64,000 nucleotides of DNA, taken from Chitinophaga filiformis. GTDB lineage: Bacteria; Bacteroidota; Bacteroidia; Chitinophagales; Chitinophagaceae. The stretch is taken from contig NZ_CP095855.1 of the NCBI RefSeq assembly GCF_023100805.1, positions 806,001 to 870,000 on the forward strand. Direction: 5' to 3'. Below, piece after piece: positions 27,754-62,908 of the stretch. Under the pieces are notes generated by a model. The model worked only from the letters and a program-made list of their open reading frames with translations, searched no databases and had not been told where the DNA came from. Both the position numbers and the translations under genes were made by a program. The number at the start of each line of letters is the position of its first letter. The stretch's first letter is position 1.

Positions 27754-28527
27754 ATGAAGAACTTTTCAAAAACACTCCTTAGCCTTGCCCTGGTTACCTT
27801 CTCGGGTATGACGGCCTTTGCGCAGGATAAGAATACCGGCGTGATCGATTATGAAATAAATGCAAAAATGCCTCAGCGTGGCGGTAATGAAGGTGATGGG
27901 GAAGAACAGGTCATTACATTCAATCAACACTTCTACTTCACTGGCGGTAAGGGCAAGCTGGAGACAGACCGCCCTGATTTTGGCGGTCGTGGTTTCGGCG
28001 GCGGACGTCCTGAGGGCTCACCTGGTGGTGATGGCAATGGTGGTGGCCGCGGCGGTCGTTTTGGTGGTCGTATGCGTGGTAATTTCGGTGGCGGATATGT
28101 AGACCTGAGCGGCAAGAAATACCTGCAGGTATTCTCAAAGCCCGACGATAGCACCAAAACTTACTATGCAGAAGAAGCATACGCTTCTGCAAAAGACGCG
28201 AAACTGGGCGACAAGACTAAAAAGATCGCCGGTTACAATTGTAAAAAAGCAACTGTTACCGTACGTAATGAAGAATACACCGTATGGTATACACAGGACC
28301 TGCCTTTCAGCTACAGCCCTGTCAATGGCCTCCTGCCTGATGGCAATGGCGTGGTGCTCTCTGCAGAAAGCAGCAGACGTTCCTTTACTGCTACCAAAGT
28401 GGACTTCAAACCGGTAACTACCAACGTTTCATTACCGGCAAATGCAGAAAAAGTAACGGAAGATCAGTTGCGCGACATGCGCCGTGAAGCGATGCAAAAA
28501 TTCCGTGAACGGCAAAACGGGAATTAA
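27754..28527 (+). CDS. GLPGLI-family exported protein with a glycine-rich insert
   Basis: 257 residues. A signal peptide (SLALVTFSGMTAFAQ) is followed by the GLPGLI-family opening (TGVIDYEINAKM). A glycine/arginine-rich insert lies at about 69-116 (GGRGFGGGRPEG, GGGRGGRFGGRM). Then comes the family core GDKTKKIAGYNCKKATVTV..EYTVWYTQDLPFSY..VNGLLPDGNGVVL. The name-giving GLPGLI motif is here NGLLPDGNGVVL. The family is common in Bacteroidota and of unknown function. It is followed 46 bases later by an outer-membrane barrel gene. The insert is not part of the usual family core. Confidence 0.87.
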   Translation: MKNFSKTLLSLALVTFSGMTAFAQDKNTGVIDYEINAKMPQRGGNEGDGEEQVITFNQHFYFTGGKGKLETDRPDFGGRGFGGGRPEGSPGGDGNGGGRGGRFGGRMRGNFGGGYVDLSGKKYLQVFSKPDDSTKTYYAEEAYASAKDAKLGDKTKKIAGYNCKKATVTVRNEEYTVWYTQDLPFSYSPVNGLLPDGNGVVLSAESSRRSFTATKVDFKPVTTNVSLPANAEKVTEDQLRDMRREAMQKFRERQNGN

Positions 28528-28573
28528 TTAACAGACTAACTTGCATCGTTTCCTCCTTACCAATTCCCTTTTC

Positions 28574-31450
28574 ATGAAAAGATTTACCCTTGTTGCCACT
28601 TTACTGTTCCTGTTTGCGCTCTCCACACAAGCGCAGCAGGGGCAGATCAAAGGATTACTGACCGACTCTTCTGCAACACATCCTTTACCGGATGCAACCG
28701 TAGCCCTGCTGAACGGCAGGGATTCTTCCCTCGCGGCCACCACTTTTACCGATAAAAAAGGGGCATTCTCGTTCACCGGTGTTGCCCTGGGCAACTACAG
28801 GGTGTACATCACTTTCCTGGGCTACCAGCCGGTTTTTAAAAGCGTCACGATTTCCGCAACCCAGCCAGTACTGGATATGGGCGCCATACATCTGAAAGGT
28901 AAAGGCCTGCTGTTGAACGAGGTGGAAATTATCCAGGAAGTGCCGCCCGTTGTGGTAAAGCTGGATACACTGGAATTCAATGCGGGTTCTTTTAAAACAA
29001 GAGAGAACGCAGTAGTGGAAGACCTGCTGAAAAAGCTACCGGGCGTATCAGTAGATAAAGACGGCGTGATCACAGCACAGGGGGAAACCGTGAAAAGGGT
29101 ATTGGTAGATGGTAAACCTTTTTTCAGCGACGATCCTAAACTGGCCACTAAGAACCTGCCGGCAGATATCATCGACAAGATTCAGCTGATAGACCGTAAG
29201 TCTGACCAGGCACAGTTCACCGGCATTGACGACGGCAACACAGAGAAAGCGATCAACATCACGATTAAAAAAGACAAGAAAAAAGGCTTCTTCGGCAGAG
29301 CTTCTGCCGGTTATGGCGATAATGACCGCTTTGCAGTCAATACAAGCCTGAACAGTTTTCGCGATAACAAACAGTTGTCCTTCCTGGGAAGTGGCAATAA
29401 TGTGAATAATCTTGGTTATACCTTCAACGACGTCTTCAACTTCAACGGCAACACCGGGGGAGGAGGAGGCGGTGGTGGTGGCCGCGCCGGCGGAGGCGGA
29501 CGCGGTGCGGCACAATCCACCATCAGCAGTCTTGGCGGCAACAATACCACGGGTATCACCCGTAACTGGAATGCCGGGTTTAACTACAACCAGGACTTTG
29601 GTTCGAAGCTGAAAATAAATGGCAGCTACTTTATCAACGATACACGGACCGAAACAAACAGGCGCAGCAACAAGCAGACCTTTCTGACTGACACCACCTA
29701 CTATTATGACCAGCAGTCTGGTTCCCTTACCGACAACAAGAATCACCGGCTGAATATGCGGGTTGAATACCAGATAGACTCTATGCATTCATTGATTGTT
29801 ACCCCCAGTTTCAGTTATTCCAACGGCTCTACCAACACGCTCAATCAATATGAATCACGGGACGAGAATAAGGTGCCAACAATAGACGGAGAATCCAGGA
29901 ACAGCAGTCATGCTACTTCTCCCAACTTCTCCACTACTGCCCTGTTCAGAAAGAAGTTTAACAAGATCGGCCGCACACTCAGCGCCAATTTCAGCTTTGG
30001 TTACAATACGACGGACAGGCAGAACTTCTTTAAAACGACAGACATTCACCTGGCAACAGCTACGACAGATTCCTTCAGCACCGGCTACGACAGGATGACC
30101 AATGCGGATAATATGGGCCGCAATATGGGCGTACGACTGACTTATACCGAGCCGCTGATGAAAGACCGTTTCCTCGAGCTGTCTTATGCATGGAATAATA
30201 ACTATAGCGATTCCAGGAACCTCACTTATGATGTCAATGGCACCAGTGGTAAATACGATAAACTGAATGATAGTCTGACCAACATATTTGAGAACACATT
30301 TACCACACAACAGGCAGGCATAGACATCCGTACGCAGAAATTAAAGTATGATTATACGTTTGGATTAAACGTACAGTTCAGCAGCCTGCTGAACGACAAC
30401 GTCAGCAGAAAAACACGCATTGATCAGCATACTGTCAATTTCTATCCATCAGCGTCATTTAACTATAATTTCCAGAGAGGCAAAAGGCTGCGTTTCCGTT
30501 ATAATGGCAGCACCGCCCAGCCTACAGTCACGCAGTTGCAGCCATTGCCAGACCTGACCAGTTCATTGTATGTTCAGCAAGGTAATCCTGATCTGAAGCC
30601 ATCCTTTTCACACAGTATCAACATGGGCTATAACGTATTTAACAACAGCACGTTCCGTGGCTTCTTTACCAACGTGAACGCCAGCTTTACAACTAATAAG
30701 ATCGTAAATGCCAACCGTGTTGATACATCAGGCAAACAGTATACGAAACCGGTAAACGCCAATGGTGCATACAATCTCAATGCCTTTGCCGTAAATACCA
30801 TTCCCATCAAAAAGCTGAAGACCTCCCTGAATCTGAACACCAATCTGAACTACAGCCGGGATGTAAGTTTCACAGGCACTCAAACAGGCTTTACAAAGCT
30901 GCTGAGAAATTATACCAGGAACTTTGGCATTACACAGGGATTCAACTTTAATTATACACACAAAGAGTTGTTTGATATCTCTGCAGGTGCCAGTGTTAAC
31001 TATAGTGGTGCACGATATGATATTCAGCCAATAAACAACACAGACTATTTTAATTATGCATTCTCGTTTGATTATAACGTCAACCTGCCACATGGTTTCA
31101 TAATAGGAAGCGACATTACTTATACCCTGAATGCGGGCAGGGCTGAAGGTTACAACGTTGACGTAACTATGCTGAATGCGTTTATTTCGAAAAGCGTATT
31201 CAAGGATAAAAGAGGTTTGATAAAACTGAGCGGCTATGACCTCTTACATCAGAATGTAAGCGTGGGACGTAATACAGGCGAGAACTATATTGAAGACGTG
31301 AACAACATGGTATTACAGCGGTATTTCATGATCAGCTTCACTTACTTCATCAACAAATTTGCGGGTAGCAACAACAATAATGGCGAACGCCGCAGAATGG
31401 GCAATCCGGGAATGCGGATGGGCAATCCGGGATTTATGAGGGGAGGTTGA
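28574..31450 (+). CDS. outer-membrane beta-barrel protein, TonB-dependent receptor type
   Basis: 958 residues from ATG 28574. A signal peptide (LLFLFALSTQAQ) is followed by a carboxypeptidase-regulatory-like beta domain (about 22-105; TFTDKKGAFSFTGVALGNYRVYITFLGY). A plug-like region comes next (NAVVEDLLKKLPGVSVDKDG, GKPFFSDDPKLATKNLPADI), then a long Asn/aromatic-rich barrel typical of OMP_b-brl_3. A glycine-rich loop is present near residue 297-312 (GGGGGGGGGRAGGGGRG). The C-terminus is a repeated GNPG(M/F)RM-like tail rather than a closing aromatic strand. It is probably co-transcribed with the GLPGLI gene. The substrate is unknown. Confidence 0.9.
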   Translation: MKRFTLVATLLFLFALSTQAQQGQIKGLLTDSSATHPLPDATVALLNGRDSSLAATTFTDKKGAFSFTGVALGNYRVYITFLGYQPVFKSVTISATQPVLDMGAIHLKGKGLLLNEVEIIQEVPPVVVKLDTLEFNAGSFKTRENAVVEDLLKKLPGVSVDKDGVITAQGETVKRVLVDGKPFFSDDPKLATKNLPADIIDKIQLIDRKSDQAQFTGIDDGNTEKAINITIKKDKKKGFFGRASAGYGDNDRFAVNTSLNSFRDNKQLSFLGSGNNVNNLGYTFNDVFNFNGNTGGGGGGGGGRAGGGGRGAAQSTISSLGGNNTTGITRNWNAGFNYNQDFGSKLKINGSYFINDTRTETNRRSNKQTFLTDTTYYYDQQSGSLTDNKNHRLNMRVEYQIDSMHSLIVTPSFSYSNGSTNTLNQYESRDENKVPTIDGESRNSSHATSPNFSTTALFRKKFNKIGRTLSANFSFGYNTTDRQNFFKTTDIHLATATTDSFSTGYDRMTNADNMGRNMGVRLTYTEPLMKDRFLELSYAWNNNYSDSRNLTYDVNGTSGKYDKLNDSLTNIFENTFTTQQAGIDIRTQKLKYDYTFGLNVQFSSLLNDNVSRKTRIDQHTVNFYPSASFNYNFQRGKRLRFRYNGSTAQPTVTQLQPLPDLTSSLYVQQGNPDLKPSFSHSINMGYNVFNNSTFRGFFTNVNASFTTNKIVNANRVDTSGKQYTKPVNANGAYNLNAFAVNTIPIKKLKTSLNLNTNLNYSRDVSFTGTQTGFTKLLRNYTRNFGITQGFNFNYTHKELFDISAGASVNYSGARYDIQPINNTDYFNYAFSFDYNVNLPHGFIIGSDITYTLNAGRAEGYNVDVTMLNAFISKSVFKDKRGLIKLSGYDLLHQNVSVGRNTGENYIEDVNNMVLQRYFMISFTYFINKFAGSNNNNGERRRMGNPGMRMGNPGFMRGG

Positions 31451-54330: not shown

Positions 54331-56004
54331 TTATTTTTCCCCTATTAAACAGCCCGAAACGTTCCAGGCGCTGAAGCTATTTCCTTCGCGCTCTCCCAGT
54401 GGGATCGCCACCTTAAAGGTATGTTCTCCCGGTGTGAGATCGGGTAGGGGAATAGTGATCGGTTCTGTCACTCCTCCCGGACACCAGTTAGACCGGCTCA
54501 GATCTGAAGATGCCAGACCATTCACAAAATTGGCTGTTGCCGGGTTTGACAAACGGAAGTTGCTGCAGTCTGTACGCCATGGAATAAAATGATATACCCT
54601 TTTTCCATCTACGAAGATCTCGTTCAGCTTCTGATTGAACTCATCTCCACCTCCCCAGCCACCATGGCCGGTTGCAGTATAACGTAAGCGGAGGTTCTTT
54701 AATCCTTCCGGTATGTTCACAGTAACGGTTAGCGAATCCTTTCCGAACATGGTACCATATTCCTGTTCCGCCATTTCCATGAGGTTGGTGGTATTAAAGA
54801 CAGGCATTATCCAATGCTCCTCCTTTGTTCCTTTCTGGTCGCTGTCTGCAGGGTAGTATTTCAGACGAAGGCTTACCTTATGGCCGCCCTTGTCATAGTT
54901 ACCAATGTACATGCCCAACCATACTTCTCCCTGTAAGCGCGGTAGTAATTCCGTAATATCCTGGCGATAGACGGCGGAATCAGCCCATTGGTAGCCTTTT
55001 ATTTTCACCTTCTCATTATAATAATTGATACCGAAGGGAGTGAAAAAACGCATCAGCTCCATGGTGGGCAGATAGTTATCTGTCGCTACCACTCCACGAT
55101 ACTTCTCATGATATACAGGCAGTTCCTTTACTCCCTTTTTCAAACCGTCCAGGAAAGATGTCTTTTTATCTACGGGTACCATAAATACCGAACCCGTACG
55201 GTCGTAGGAGTCGCCGTTGGAATACTCCGCAACTTCTGCAAACAACGTCACTTCGGTCGTCTTTGGCAACTTTACTTTCTTAAGGATAACGGTTCCTCCG
55301 GCATAGTGGTAAGTGACGTTTTCCTGCTCATCTGCCGGGTCATTGAATTTATTTCCCCAGCTGATCTGCTCCTGGTTAAAGACATGCAGGGTCGTGAACC
55401 GGTTCTCGATAACCTGTCGCAGGTAGGTGGCATCGTCTACCATCGATCCCATGGTAACCGGCCATTTTAGTTCTTCGTCTTTAATATCACGCAGGTCTAC
55501 TTTTGTTGCGATGTATTCGGAGGTGCCATTACGCAATGTTCTCAGTATCAGGCCCAGCCCCGGAGCAAAGTTCAGCACCGGCGTTCCTTTCATTGGCAGG
55601 GCATCGGTATACCAGATCTCAATAGTATTGGAGCGGACCTTTACTTTCGCCTTCTTGCAGGCATACCCCAGCACAGTATCGATACCCGGCAACAGCTCGG
55701 GCTGGTCATAATTGCTGAATGGCTTTTTGAATGTCAGCAGTTCCCCTTCTTTGTTGGTGATCATCTGGTAGGTGGCCTTTCCTTTGTTGTCGAGGAACTG
55801 CCGTTCTTTCTGTGCAACAGCATCCAGCGGCTGGTAGCTGGCCCTGTTCCCCTGGATGATCAGTTTCAGATTTCCTTCAGGGACGTCCTTGCCATTATAT
55901 CGAAAGCCGTAGGTGATCTCGGCCCCTGGCTTTTCTTTCCCTGATTGTGCCTGTATTCCCCCTGTTATCAATAGGGCGATCCACAGCAATGAGTGTTTTT
56001 TCAT
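54331..56004 (-). CDS. secreted GLPGLI/PNGase F-like fusion protein
   Basis: 557 residues from ATG 56004. A signal peptide (LLWIALLITGGIQAQ) precedes an N-terminal GLPGLI-like domain (about 22-190) with VLGYACKKAKVKVRSNTIEIWYTDALP and a variant motif APGLGLIL. PNGase F-like domains follow: VTLFAEVAEYSNGDSYDRTGSVFMVP (the Asp in YDR matches the PNGase F catalytic Asp region), LQGEVWLGMYIGNYDKGGHKV, and a C-domain with HGGWGGGDEFNQKLNEIFVDG, IPWRTDCSNFRLSNP and SRSNWCPGGVTEPI. PNGase F releases N-glycans from asparagine. Activity here is inferred. It leads the pnuC-kinase unit. Confidence 0.85.
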   Translation of the reverse strand: MKKHSLLWIALLITGGIQAQSGKEKPGAEITYGFRYNGKDVPEGNLKLIIQGNRASYQPLDAVAQKERQFLDNKGKATYQMITNKEGELLTFKKPFSNYDQPELLPGIDTVLGYACKKAKVKVRSNTIEIWYTDALPMKGTPVLNFAPGLGLILRTLRNGTSEYIATKVDLRDIKDEELKWPVTMGSMVDDATYLRQVIENRFTTLHVFNQEQISWGNKFNDPADEQENVTYHYAGGTVILKKVKLPKTTEVTLFAEVAEYSNGDSYDRTGSVFMVPVDKKTSFLDGLKKGVKELPVYHEKYRGVVATDNYLPTMELMRFFTPFGINYYNEKVKIKGYQWADSAVYRQDITELLPRLQGEVWLGMYIGNYDKGGHKVSLRLKYYPADSDQKGTKEEHWIMPVFNTTNLMEMAEQEYGTMFGKDSLTVTVNIPEGLKNLRLRYTATGHGGWGGGDEFNQKLNEIFVDGKRVYHFIPWRTDCSNFRLSNPATANFVNGLASSDLSRSNWCPGGVTEPITIPLPDLTPGEHTFKVAIPLGEREGNSFSAWNVSGCLIGEK

Positions 56005-58711: not shown

Positions 58712-60349
58712 TTATTTATACACCGCCTGCACCGGTTTACCCACGGCGCCGTTAGGCATCTGGATACGCAGCATAGCCGCAATGGTTGGTGCGATATCAG
58801 CCATACTTACCATATCGTTGCTCGTTCCGTGTTTCACATGCCAGCCCATGAATACCAGCGGCAGGTGCGTATCGTAGGGGTTCCAGTTGCCATGAGTGGT
58901 GCCCTTGTCCGATCCGGAATACCAGCCTGGCTCGGGAATGATCGCGACCGAACCGCAACGCTTGGGGTTGTACCCGTTGGCGATCATCGTCCTTATTGGC
59001 TCCGGTATAGCACTGTTTCCCAGGTTATCCACATCTGCAGCAAACTGTACGCCCGGCAGCTTTTGCAGGTATTGTACTGTCGCCTTCCTGATCGCGTCAT
59101 AATCCAGTTTTTGTGCAGAGATCATTTTGAGGTCAAAGCTGATATGATAATTCTCTGTGCTCAATGCCAGTTTATCCACACCAAAACGTTCTTTCAATGC
59201 CGCATTCAACCCGCTTAACATTCTCCCGTCGGGCAGGCCCGCAGGGATCTGATGCTCTTCCATAAAGGCTACGGAATTGGCAGCGCCATGGTCGGCAGAC
59301 AGGAACACCAGGTAATTGCCCTTGCCTAAACGCTGGTCCAAATAACGGAAGAAGGCCGACAGGTCTTTGTCCAGCCGCAGATAAGTATCTTCTACCTCGA
59401 TAGCATTGGGTCCATATCTATGTCCCACATAATCTGTTGATGCACAGTTGATAGTAAGGAAATCCGTCACTGTATTGCTGCCCAGTTGATATCCTTCAAT
59501 GGCCGCTTTGGCAAATTCCAGGGTAAGGGTGTTACCGGAAGGCGTGGAGCGCAGGCTGCCTTTGTCTTTCTGGTAGATGTCCGGCATGTTATGCGGAAAT
59601 GTAGCCTTTGTCTCCCCAATGAAAGTGCCTTCCCATTTCATATCATCCGCTGTACTCTGGATGTAGGTATTGATGGGATATAGTGTTTCCCAGGGCTTCG
59701 ACATTAATTGCGCCGGCAATTGCCGGGCGTTAAACGCCTTTACCCATTCCGGCAGGTCCTGCATATAAAAGGTACTGGTCACAAAGCTACCATTACTATC
59801 GTCCAGCCAAAAGGCGCCGTTCGCTGCATGTCCGGCCGGCAGGATGGACGCCCTGTCTTTCAGGGACACGCCCACCACCTTTGAGCGGAAGTTGGTGGCT
59901 ATTTTCAGCTCGTCGGTGATCGTAGAGGCCAGCAGGTTACGGGGCGACATTCTGCCGGCATCACTGCTTGTACCCACAGGTTGAACTGTAGTATCTTCCG
60001 TGCAATACCAATGACGGCCGGTCACCTGGTCAGTCCAGTCATTGCCGGTAATACCGTGGATGGCAGGTACAGATCCGGTGTAGATCGTACTATGCCCTAC
60101 TGCTGTAAAAGAAGGTAAATGGGTAATAAAGGTGTTTTCGCAGGAAAAGCCTTCAGACAACATTCTCCTGAATCCGCCATTTTCGTAGCGGTCATAATAC
60201 CGGTACAGATAATCCCAGCGCATCTGGTCAACAACAATACCTACAACCAATTTCGGATGGTCTACGGGCTTCTGGGCAGAAACGGCAACTGTCTGCAACA
60301 TGGCGCCGGCGAGCACCAGTGCAGACAGTGATTGACATTTTTTTCTCAT
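58712..60349 (-). CDS. pafA: PafA-type alkaline phosphatase
   Basis: 545 residues from ATG 60349. A signal peptide (LAGAMLQTVAVSAQ) precedes the alkaline phosphatase fold with all expected residues: Asp41 in VVDQMRWDYL, nucleophile Thr82 in LPSFTAVGHSTIYTG, Lys/Arg in SLKDRASILPAGH, Asp/His in STDYVGHRYGP, Asp-His in SADHGAA, and His in GTTHGNWNPYDTH. Those are the PafA metal and substrate ligands. PafA is the main periplasmic phosphomonoesterase of Bacteroidota and is not strongly repressed by phosphate. It is near the glycerol genes but on a separate transcript. Confidence 0.93.
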   Translation of the reverse strand: MRKKCQSLSALVLAGAMLQTVAVSAQKPVDHPKLVVGIVVDQMRWDYLYRYYDRYENGGFRRMLSEGFSCENTFITHLPSFTAVGHSTIYTGSVPAIHGITGNDWTDQVTGRHWYCTEDTTVQPVGTSSDAGRMSPRNLLASTITDELKIATNFRSKVVGVSLKDRASILPAGHAANGAFWLDDSNGSFVTSTFYMQDLPEWVKAFNARQLPAQLMSKPWETLYPINTYIQSTADDMKWEGTFIGETKATFPHNMPDIYQKDKGSLRSTPSGNTLTLEFAKAAIEGYQLGSNTVTDFLTINCASTDYVGHRYGPNAIEVEDTYLRLDKDLSAFFRYLDQRLGKGNYLVFLSADHGAANSVAFMEEHQIPAGLPDGRMLSGLNAALKERFGVDKLALSTENYHISFDLKMISAQKLDYDAIRKATVQYLQKLPGVQFAADVDNLGNSAIPEPIRTMIANGYNPKRCGSVAIIPEPGWYSGSDKGTTHGNWNPYDTHLPLVFMGWHVKHGTSNDMVSMADIAPTIAAMLRIQMPNGAVGKPVQAVYK

Positions 60350-60556
60350 GAAAGATAGTTTGGATAACAAATAAGACCTGATTATTAACGCTTTCGGCTA
60401 TTTAAGGTTGTTAAATTATCTATCCTTTCAAAATTTGAATTGTACAAATATTACCAACGGGAATATAACAGGATAAACACCCGGCTTCTTGTCGCCGGCT
60501 TCTCTGCTTATTCTCTCAGACAGGTGCGGCCTCCCGGGTGCCTTTTAAACTGATCA

Positions 60557-61297
60557 TTACTTTATAGCCGGTTGCAGGCATAAGTATAATACTGCGGCAA
60601 TAGCCGCCCCGATAAATGGGCCAGCCACGGGAATCCAGGCATAGTCCCATCCGTTGCCGGCCTTCCCTTTTACCGGCAGGATAGCATGCATAATACGGGG
60701 TCCCAGGTCCCTGGCAGGATTAATAGCATAACCGGTAGTGCCTCCCAGCGAGAGCCCTATTGCCAAGACCAGCAGGGCCACCGGTAAGGCGCCCAGGGAG
60801 CCCATTCCCACCGGCGTTTTCTCTTCCCCCAGTTCAGCCCCGGTAAAATAAAAGATGGTGAACAACAATACGAAGGTGCCGATCACTTCACTGCCGAGAT
60901 TGCGACCGTTGTTCCTGATAGCAGGAGCTGTACAGTAACAGGCTTGTATCAGGCCAGGGTCTCCGGTAATATCCATATGATCTTTATAATAGAACCATAC
61001 CAGGAAGGCCCCGGTCATTGCCCCCAGCAACTGAGCAAGGATAAACAGGGGAACAGATGCCCAGGCGAATTTTCCGGCTATAGCCAGTGCCAGTGTCACA
61101 GCAGGATTCAGATGTGCGCCGCTGTAAGGGCCGGCTACCACTACACCTACAAATACGGCAAGCGCCCAGCCGGTCGTGATCACGATCCAGCCGCCGCCAT
61201 TGCCTTTTGTTTTATTGAGAATAACATTGGCTACTACGCCATTGCCCAGCAGTATCAGTAACATGGTTCCCAGGAACTCTGCTAATAAAGGGTGCAT
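60557..61297 (-). CDS. glpF: glycerol facilitator (aquaglyceroporin)
   Basis: 246 residues with six helices and the two NPA loops: GAHLNPAVTLALA and GYAINPARDLGPRIMHAIL. The Asp after the second NPAR marks the glycerol-conducting type rather than a water-only channel. The GlpF-type LGGTTGYA and GPRIMHA segments are present. It brings glycerol to GlpK. It is the last gene of the cluster glpD-glpK-glpF, 72 bases after glpK. Confidence 0.94.
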   Translation of the reverse strand: MHPLLAEFLGTMLLILLGNGVVANVILNKTKGNGGGWIVITTGWALAVFVGVVVAGPYSGAHLNPAVTLALAIAGKFAWASVPLFILAQLLGAMTGAFLVWFYYKDHMDITGDPGLIQACYCTAPAIRNNGRNLGSEVIGTFVLLFTIFYFTGAELGEEKTPVGMGSLGALPVALLVLAIGLSLGGTTGYAINPARDLGPRIMHAILPVKGKAGNGWDYAWIPVAGPFIGAAIAAVLYLCLQPAIK

Positions 61298-61369
61298 TGA
61301 AGATTATTTTTATCAGTTAGTCATTAAGTCGTGGCGCGGAAATGATCCTTCAGATCATCCGCAGGTATA

Positions 61370-62908
61370 TTACTGGCTTACAACAGCGTCTTCCTGTGCC
61401 GAAAGTTTTGCCCAGGCTTTCACTGCCTTTACCGCATGGCTCCATCCCCTGATCCATTTGTGCACCTGCTCTTCCTTACCGGCCGGAGTAAACAAGTGAT
61501 CCACCTGCCACTGGCGGGCAATTTCTTCCTGGTCTTTCCAGAAACCTGTTGCCAGCCCCGCCAGATAGGCAGCTCCCATTGCAGTGGTTTCTGTGATCTT
61601 GGGGCGTATTACCTGTGTACCCAGGATGTCGGCCTGGAACTGCATCAGTAAATTATTGTTGGTAGCGCCGCCATCCACCCGCAATTCCTTGATGCTGATA
61701 CCGGCATCTGCCTCCATGGCACGCAGCACCTCCATAGTCTGGTAAGCAATACTTTCAAGCGCCGCCCTTGCTATATGCGCCGACGTTGTTCCCCTTGTCA
61801 TGCCGACAAGTGTTCCTCTCGCATGCTGGTCCCAATGTGGAGCGCCCAGACCGGCGAAGGCGGGTACCAGGTACACGCCATCATTGTGAGGCGCTTTGGC
61901 TGCCAGGCTTTCCACTTCAGCAGAGGACCTGATAATACCCAGGCCATCTCTCAGCCATTGCACCACGGCGCCGGCAATGAAAATGCTGCCCTCCAGGGCA
62001 TATTCCACCTTCCCGTTTATTTTCCATGCAATAGTAGTAACCAGGTTGTTTTGAGAAATGATCGGATGTTCGCCGATATTCATCAGCATAAAACATCCTG
62101 TACCATAGGTATTCTTTACCATTCCGGGAGATGTGCACATCTGTCCGAATAAAGCGGCATGCTGGTCGCCCGCAATACCGGCAATAGGAATCGTCACAGA
62201 GAAAATAGACGGTGTTGTTTCGGCTATCAGCTCACTGGACTGTTTTACTTCCGGCAGCATGGCAGCGGGAATATCGAAAAGGGACAACAGTTCTTCGTCC
62301 CAGCTTTGGGTATGTATATTAAATAACATCGTCCGCGATGCATTCGTAATATCGGTCGCATGCGTTTTTCCGTCAGTAAGGTTCCATACCAGCCAGGCAT
62401 CGACTGTCCCGAAGGCCAGTAGTCCCCTGGCCGCCTTTTCCCTTGCTCCAGCAACATTGTCCAGGATCCATTTCACTTTTGTTGCGGAGAAGTAGGCATC
62501 AATTACGAGACCGGTCTTTTCGCGGATCATTTGTCCGTGGCCCGCCGCTTTGAGCTCGTCACAGTAGGCGGCCGTACGTCTGTCCTGCCAAACGATGGCG
62601 TTATGAACAGGCTTTCCCGTATGGCGGTCCCACACAATGGTCGTCTCCCGTTGATTAGTGATCCCGATCGCCGCGATATCTGTTCCTCTCAATCCGGCTT
62701 TGGCTACTGCTTCTGCAGCAACGCCCAGCTGACTGGACCAGATCTCGCTGGCATCATGTTCTACCCGTCCGGGGGAAGGGAAGATCTGCCTGAATTCTTT
62801 CTGGGCTACAGAAACGATAGCGCCGGCTTTATCAAAGATGATCGCCCTTGAACTGGTGGTACCCTGATCCAATGCCAGGACGTACCGGGTTATTTCCTTT
62901 TCCTTCAT
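61370..62908 (-). CDS. glpK: glycerol kinase
   Basis: 512 residues, a FGGY-family kinase. It has [15 protein letters not shown] at the start, [98 protein letters not shown] and [18 protein letters not shown] near the end. These are diagnostic of GlpK. It phosphorylates glycerol that enters through GlpF and supplies GlpD. It lies 59 bases after glpD. Confidence 0.97.

Follow-up and report, generated by a model that had tools for sequence, protein, structure and literature searches.

Two peptide-N-glycosidases (PNGases) of solved structure are the closest described systems: PNGF-II (EMTypeII) of Elizabethkingia meningoseptica (PDB 4r4x and 4r4z) and the PNGase B035DRAFT_03341 of Bacteroides massiliensis (7zgn), which was deposited in the PDB under the name "Glpgli family protein". 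Both join an N-domain, NBL (N-terminal bowl-like domain), to two PNGase domains. A paper of 2022 (PMC9522356) attributes "11 beta-sheets" to NBL and regards it as unique to these two enzymes; it calls the N-domain structurally unique and leaves its function unexplained.

We report on a gene found in a window of Chitinophaga filiformis DNA, by which we mean the whole stretch of 64,000 nucleotides that was analysed (Table 1). The open reading frame runs on the minus strand from an ATG at 56004 to a stop codon at 54331-54333, as the earlier note had placed it. In a sequence search of the PDB, the best solved relatives are 7zgn and PNGF-II, each at about 4e-138, the alignment with 7zgn (E 4e-138) covering aa 23-554. 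The fusion architecture is already known, being that of PNGF-II and 7zgn, and the window gene encodes another predicted enzyme of this kind. The whole architecture is like that of PNGF-II; the N-domain diverges, since a single-sequence phmmer search aligns the two proteins only from aa 110 onward, whereas a profile of 25 rows aligns from near the start.

In Pfam, the protein matches PNGase_F-II_N (PF22252) at aa 65-194 (2e-22, 80.1 bits for a cut-off of 27.6), N-glycanase_N (PF09112) at aa 205-383 (2e-53, 181.2 bits for 22.4) and N-glycanase_C (PF09113) at aa 415-553 (6e-46, 156.1 bits for 25). The GLPGLI model TIGR01200 of NCBIfam matches aa 65-178 at 4e-9 with 36.5 bits, which is under its curated cut-off of 50, so that by NCBI's rule alone the N-domain would be only GLPGLI-like. 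Read by eye and without a prediction program, the N-terminus MKKHSLLWIALLITGGIQA-QSG resembles a signal peptide with a predicted cut before Gln20, and no lipobox Cys was seen in it. A Gln after the predicted cleavage site agrees with the Bacteroidetes Q-rule (PMC5837995). The PNGase is probably exported and periplasmic.

Table 1. Coordinates of the features discussed, as positions of the window.
Feature	Position	Strand	Basis
Gene of the predicted type II PNGase (557 aa), with an NBL/GLPGLI-type domain followed by the two PNGase F domains, N and C	54331..56004	(-)	ORF, Pfam, PDB matches
Predicted signal peptide (aa 1-19), with the cut expected ahead of Gln20	55948..56004	(-)	read by eye from sequence
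NBL/GLPGLI-type domain, aa 20-204, LolA-like fold in model	55393..55947	(-)	Pfam, NCBIfam, model, profile comparison
PNGase F N-terminal domain, aa 205-383	54856..55392	(-)	PF09112
PNGase F C-terminal domain, aa 415-553	54346..54762	(-)	PF09113
Codon of Asp268, taken as PNGase F catalytic Asp	55201..55203	(-)	25/25 rows
Codon of Glu455	54640..54642	(-)	25/25 rows
Codon of Gly368, at the position that marks type II (PNGase F has Glu118 there, group 1 has Asp)	54901..54903	(-)	alignment and PMC9522356
Codon of Glu410, in 22/22 NBL-bearing rows	54775..54777	(-)	alignment
Standalone GLPGLI gene, homologue of the PNGase N-domain	27754..28527	(+)	TIGR01200 73.7 bits (cut-off 50) and PF22252, both exceeded
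Outer-membrane barrel protein, CarboxypepD_reg + OMP_b-brl_3	28574..31450	(+)	directly downstream of GLPGLI gene 27754..28527

Occurrence and surroundings of the gene

Among 395 genomes of the phylum, PF09112 was found at E <= 0.001 in 31 and with a strong match (E < 1e-40) in 21. The 21 strong PNGases lie in frames of 559-590 aa (18 of them) or of 394-423 aa (3). PF22252 was found in 96 of the same 395 genomes, and in 70 of them it exceeds its cut-off. Its match list is headed by the 18 long PNGases (E 1e-72 to 6e-16), and the other frames, among the matches listed, are mostly of about 200-330 aa, which is the size of standalone GLPGLI proteins. The source genome itself has one PNGase and four PF22252 matches, three of which are standalone genes, two of these being above the cut-off. 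We also noticed a distant PNGase-like group in other genomes of the same family (L014-L021), whose frames, 456-1141 aa long, give weaker PNGase F-like matches at E 3e-13 to 4e-4.

The gene of 7zgn adjoins that of a GH92 mannosidase (PMC9522356), whereas the nearest neighbours of the window PNGase gene are those of an NMN transporter, an NfuA-like protein and GHL10. The genes examined between 51692 and 62908 further include TsaC-type, monofunctional transglycosylase, AAA_28, PafA phosphatase, MIP channel and GlpK. We rejected the idea that the PNGase gene sits in an N-glycan gene cluster, as there are no such genes among the neighbours examined over this range. On the minus strand at 58712-62908, the PafA-type alkaline phosphatase, the MIP channel and the glycerol kinase stand in a row and may form a phosphate and glycerol salvage set.

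Catalytic residues and type of the enzyme

We aligned the window protein with 24 relatives, namely every match at E < 1e-40 in 195 genomes of the family and 395 of the phylum. Of the 25 rows of this alignment, 22 have the N-domain and 3 lack it. Two residues, Asp268 and Glu455, are invariant (25/25 rows); we take them, from the alignment rather than from a structural superposition, to correspond to the residues that are catalytic in PNGase F. Thus the Asp and Glu on which the earlier note had made its reading depend are present.

The position which distinguishes the types of enzyme, Glu118 of PNGase F, is defined in PMC9522356. Here it is occupied by Gly (Gly368 of the window protein) in all 22 NBL-bearing rows and by Asp in the 3 rows without NBL. 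PNGF-II shares with the window PNGase the Asp of YDRTG, the Glu of GDEF and the Gly at the Glu118 position, and 7zgn has the same Gly; Cys116 of the window PNGase is Val in PNGF-II. Another residue, Glu410, is present in 22/22 NBL-bearing rows and is Tyr in the same column of the 3 others; to judge from the alignment, it could perhaps substitute for Glu118. That Glu410 corresponds to Glu418 of EMTypeII is a tentative assignment, because the residue count is off by one.

The homologue 7zgn was measured to release glycans from plant glycoproteins (PMC9522356). From this activity and from the type II residues, we predict that the window protein, too, is a PNGase of type II. We consider it very probable that it is a type II peptide-N-glycosidase whose N-domain is homologous to GLPGLI proteins, these two statements being taken jointly. 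We infer its activity and specificity, the catalytic domains being judged from their sequence. The window protein might also be a PNGase-like binding protein, catalytically dead or of different specificity. This is very improbable, for Asp268, Glu455, Cys480 and Cys508 are all intact in 25/25 rows and the profile scores are far above the Pfam cut-offs; a dead enzyme was rejected on the invariance of Asp268 and Glu455. As a type II PNGase, the protein would hydrolyse the GlcNAc-Asn bond of N-glycans with its two jelly-roll domains, Asp268 and Glu455 being catalytic. Gly368 would give space for core alpha-1,3-fucose, and it can therefore be expected that plant- and insect-type glycopeptides are substrates. 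At most, the enzyme would be useful as a new source of deglycosylation enzyme; the N-domain is the more important lead.

Kinship and modelled fold of the N-domain

We compared a profile of the NBL domains (22 rows) with a profile of standalone GLPGLI proteins (62 rows). They match in hhalign with probability 99.5 and E 3.4e-22 over 192 columns. This is far beyond chance and hence settles the homology of the N-domain with the GLPGLI proteins; a chance likeness of the GLPGLI motif was rejected on the same E value. Together with the Pfam domains, the comparison bears out the earlier note, which had read the gene as a GLPGLI-type domain fused to a complete PNGase F. In a search of the PDB with a profile of nine standalone GLPGLI proteins, the only matches better than 0.3 are the N-domain of 4r4z/4r4x (3e-13) and 7zgn (3e-7). 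Four of the first six standalone proteins exceed the PF22252 cut-off and score PF22252 above Porph_ging; L074 is over both cut-offs with Porph_ging scoring better than PF22252, and L004, at 24.8 bits, is short of the PF22252 cut-off. PF22252 is found at E <= 0.05 in 57 of the 62 standalone rows. The Porph_ging matches in 62/62 of them are largely circular, because 61 rows were chosen by the Porph_ging motif.

The GLPGLI family (TIGR01200 / Porph_ging PF09697) has in common with the N-domain the block Cys-x-x-Ala ... Trp-Tyr/Phe-Thr ... Gly-Leu; it differs in that the PNGase N-domain is fused to an enzyme, stays under the NCBI cut-off and has a worn GLPGLI motif. A quick tree was built from 69 rows; it has long branches and no outside root, and it includes 34 rows drawn at random from the 61 GLPGLI rows fetched. 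In it, a single branch (SH-aLRT 98) separates the 22 NBL domains from all other rows. The NBL group stands beside three standalone proteins, the window's own among them (SH-aLRT 95), a placement which is unsure because the branches are long. Most simply, the N-domain was joined to the PNGase once. Elsewhere, a frame of 474 aa (L213:1457-2881) combines a PF22252-type N-domain, at 27.9 bits barely above the cut-off, with six WG-repeat stretches, and two further long PF22252 frames look like usual GLPGLI proteins whose frame has been extended upstream.

Two structures were modelled with AlphaFold2 without templates: the window N-domain (aa 20-204; 36 rows, pLDDT 74.5, pTM 0.67), whose model is poor at residues 47-60 and 68-80 (pLDDT under 50), and the standalone GLPGLI protein L166 of Chryseobacterium lathyri (62 rows, pLDDT 79.5, pTM 0.75). 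With both models, Foldseek places six chains of PNGF-II and 7zgn first (8e-8 to 9e-7). After these, the window N-domain matches LolA (from 3e-5) and RseB (from 2e-4), and L166 matches LolA (from 6e-4), VioE (from 1e-3) and RseB (9e-3). For both models, Foldseek gives low TM-scores, mostly 0.3-0.5, to the chains of LolA, RseB and VioE. In VIA-align, the window N-domain matches 4r4x with Z 14.7 (4.0 A, 164 residues), MucB 6jau with 10.0 (4.4 A, 125), VioE with 9.1, RseB with 8.5 and LolA with 8.3; the values for L166 are 16.4 for 4r4x (3.5 A, 175 residues), 10.0 for LolA 2w7q (3.7 A, 140), 10.7 for VioE, 9.9 for EPDR1 and 9.7 for RseB. We assume that 4r4x was probably in the AlphaFold2 training set, which means that the match of the models to it is not fully independent.

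Chains of LolA, RseB/MucB, VioE and EPDR1 make up most of the listed VIA-align matches of each model, at Z 8-11 over 119-148 residues, and ranks 4-40 of L166 are nearly all titled LolA, RseB/MucB, VioE or EPDR. These Z values are somewhat above the 7-8 often reached by models without a clear match (a Z under 8 can reflect a common strand arrangement), and the identity to members of the superfamily is just 4-16% among the matches listed. LolA, RseB, VioE and EPDR1 form one superfamily with an 11-stranded core which binds hydrophobic ligands (PMC6363788); the text of that paper contains no word that begins with PNG. From the comparison of the models, rather than of the solved 4r4x, it is likely that the N-domain has a LolA-like beta-clam fold, an RseB-like half-barrel. 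In the literature searched, a LolA likeness of NBL is not stated; GLPGLI is mentioned there in three papers, none of which treats it together with PNGase or, in the passages covered, gives it a fold or function. Among the papers listed on LolA-like folds in Bacteroidetes, none is a work on GLPGLI. The main new lead from these models is that the N-domain would tie the GLPGLI proteins to a LolA-like fold, hence to candidate roles: the solved PNGase structures would already contain the fold of the large GLPGLI family.

Barrel genes and possible roles of the N-domain

The standalone GLPGLI gene of the window is followed by the gene of a barrel protein which we take to be TonB-receptor-like; this pair (27754-31450) lies about 23 kb away from the PNGase gene. 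We obtained 79 GLPGLI loci by a profile scan of genome contigs (the best 80 of 194 confirmed), with a closer set of five proteins because an alignment of nine divergent ones was too varied for the scan. A homologue of the window barrel lies somewhere in 65 of the 79 loci and in none of the other 14; six other window proteins match 0/79, and the two-component kinase and regulator of the window match 4 and 5. For the positions of the two genes we used 71 loci (the 79 less eight without a called ORF, with several near-copies that include six Saprospiraceae-type rows). In 59 of them, the GLPGLI gene is followed downstream by the barrel gene, of OMP_b-brl_3 type, on the same strand, a count which applies to the typical GLPGLI subgroup, because the loci were chosen by the motif patterns of that subgroup. 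The two genes are within about 200 bases in 47 of these; the barrel gene is upstream on the same strand in 3/71 loci, and in 1 it lies on the opposite strand. Owing to this pairing, standalone GLPGLI proteins look like partners of these barrels, and may have a role in carrying, holding or assembly. The likeness to LolA and RseB and the pairing with barrels turn the function of GLPGLI into questions of binding and pull-down.

The pairing says little about the copy fused to the PNGase, because no barrel gene was found in any of the 20 PNGase loci examined, each spanning 14 kb (all the NBL-bearing ones but G451 and the window itself). This argues against the reading in which the enzyme is directed by its N-domain to a transporter or the outer membrane, as a standalone GLPGLI protein would dock to the neighbouring barrel. 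The 59/71 loci favour such a steering, and the window too has a GLPGLI gene followed by a barrel gene; we regard it as unlikely.

Most likely, the N-domain would be an accessory module on the enzyme. It may grip a hydrophobic ligand or an unfolded peptide; alternatively, it may tether the enzyme near an outer-membrane protein, on the pattern of the gene pairing of its standalone relatives. Such a role in holding a ligand or in docking is possible, at somewhat less than an even chance. The earlier note had suggested that the GLPGLI domain might be a carrier for the enzyme, and this idea gains indirect support, because the N-domain models as a LolA-like fold. Its other suggestion, the binding of secreted glycoproteins, found no support: EMTypeII deprived of its N-domain is reported to keep its activity and specificity in vitro (PMC9522356, citing earlier work).

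The same experiment is consistent with an N-domain that has neither ligand nor partner and serves only as a spacer or to help folding; its LolA likeness would then reflect a common strand arrangement, and the enzyme would act alone. The N-domain is absent from the group 1 enzymes and from one group 2 sequence (PMC9522356) and from 3 of our 25 aligned rows, and the TM-scores to LolA-type chains are low, all of which fits a spacer. Yet the N-domain is present in 22/22 Gly-type enzymes of the sample, and in two separately aligned models the top matches after the PNGases belong mostly to one superfamily. We hold the spacer for a serious reading, if a doubtful one. More widely, the GLPGLI family, a large set of Bacteroidota envelope proteins, could be a LolA/RseB-like branch of carriers, periplasmic partners of the outer-membrane barrels encoded beside them, and the N-domain of the type II PNGases a module captured once. 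When a glycopeptide is imported, the captured module would then hold its hydrophobic or unfolded part, or dock the enzyme at the site of import. This wider scheme is rather improbable as a whole.

Of the three standalone GLPGLI genes in the source genome, two adjoin a barrel gene, with the order reversed in one case; the third has no barrel match in its 15 kb. The second GLPGLI/barrel pair of this genome (L208:8745-11864) has both genes on the same strand with their order reversed. At L214:671-3445, a GLPGLI gene lies tail to tail with a frame which, by eye, resembles a barrel of the same kind, so the pair may occur in convergent order too.
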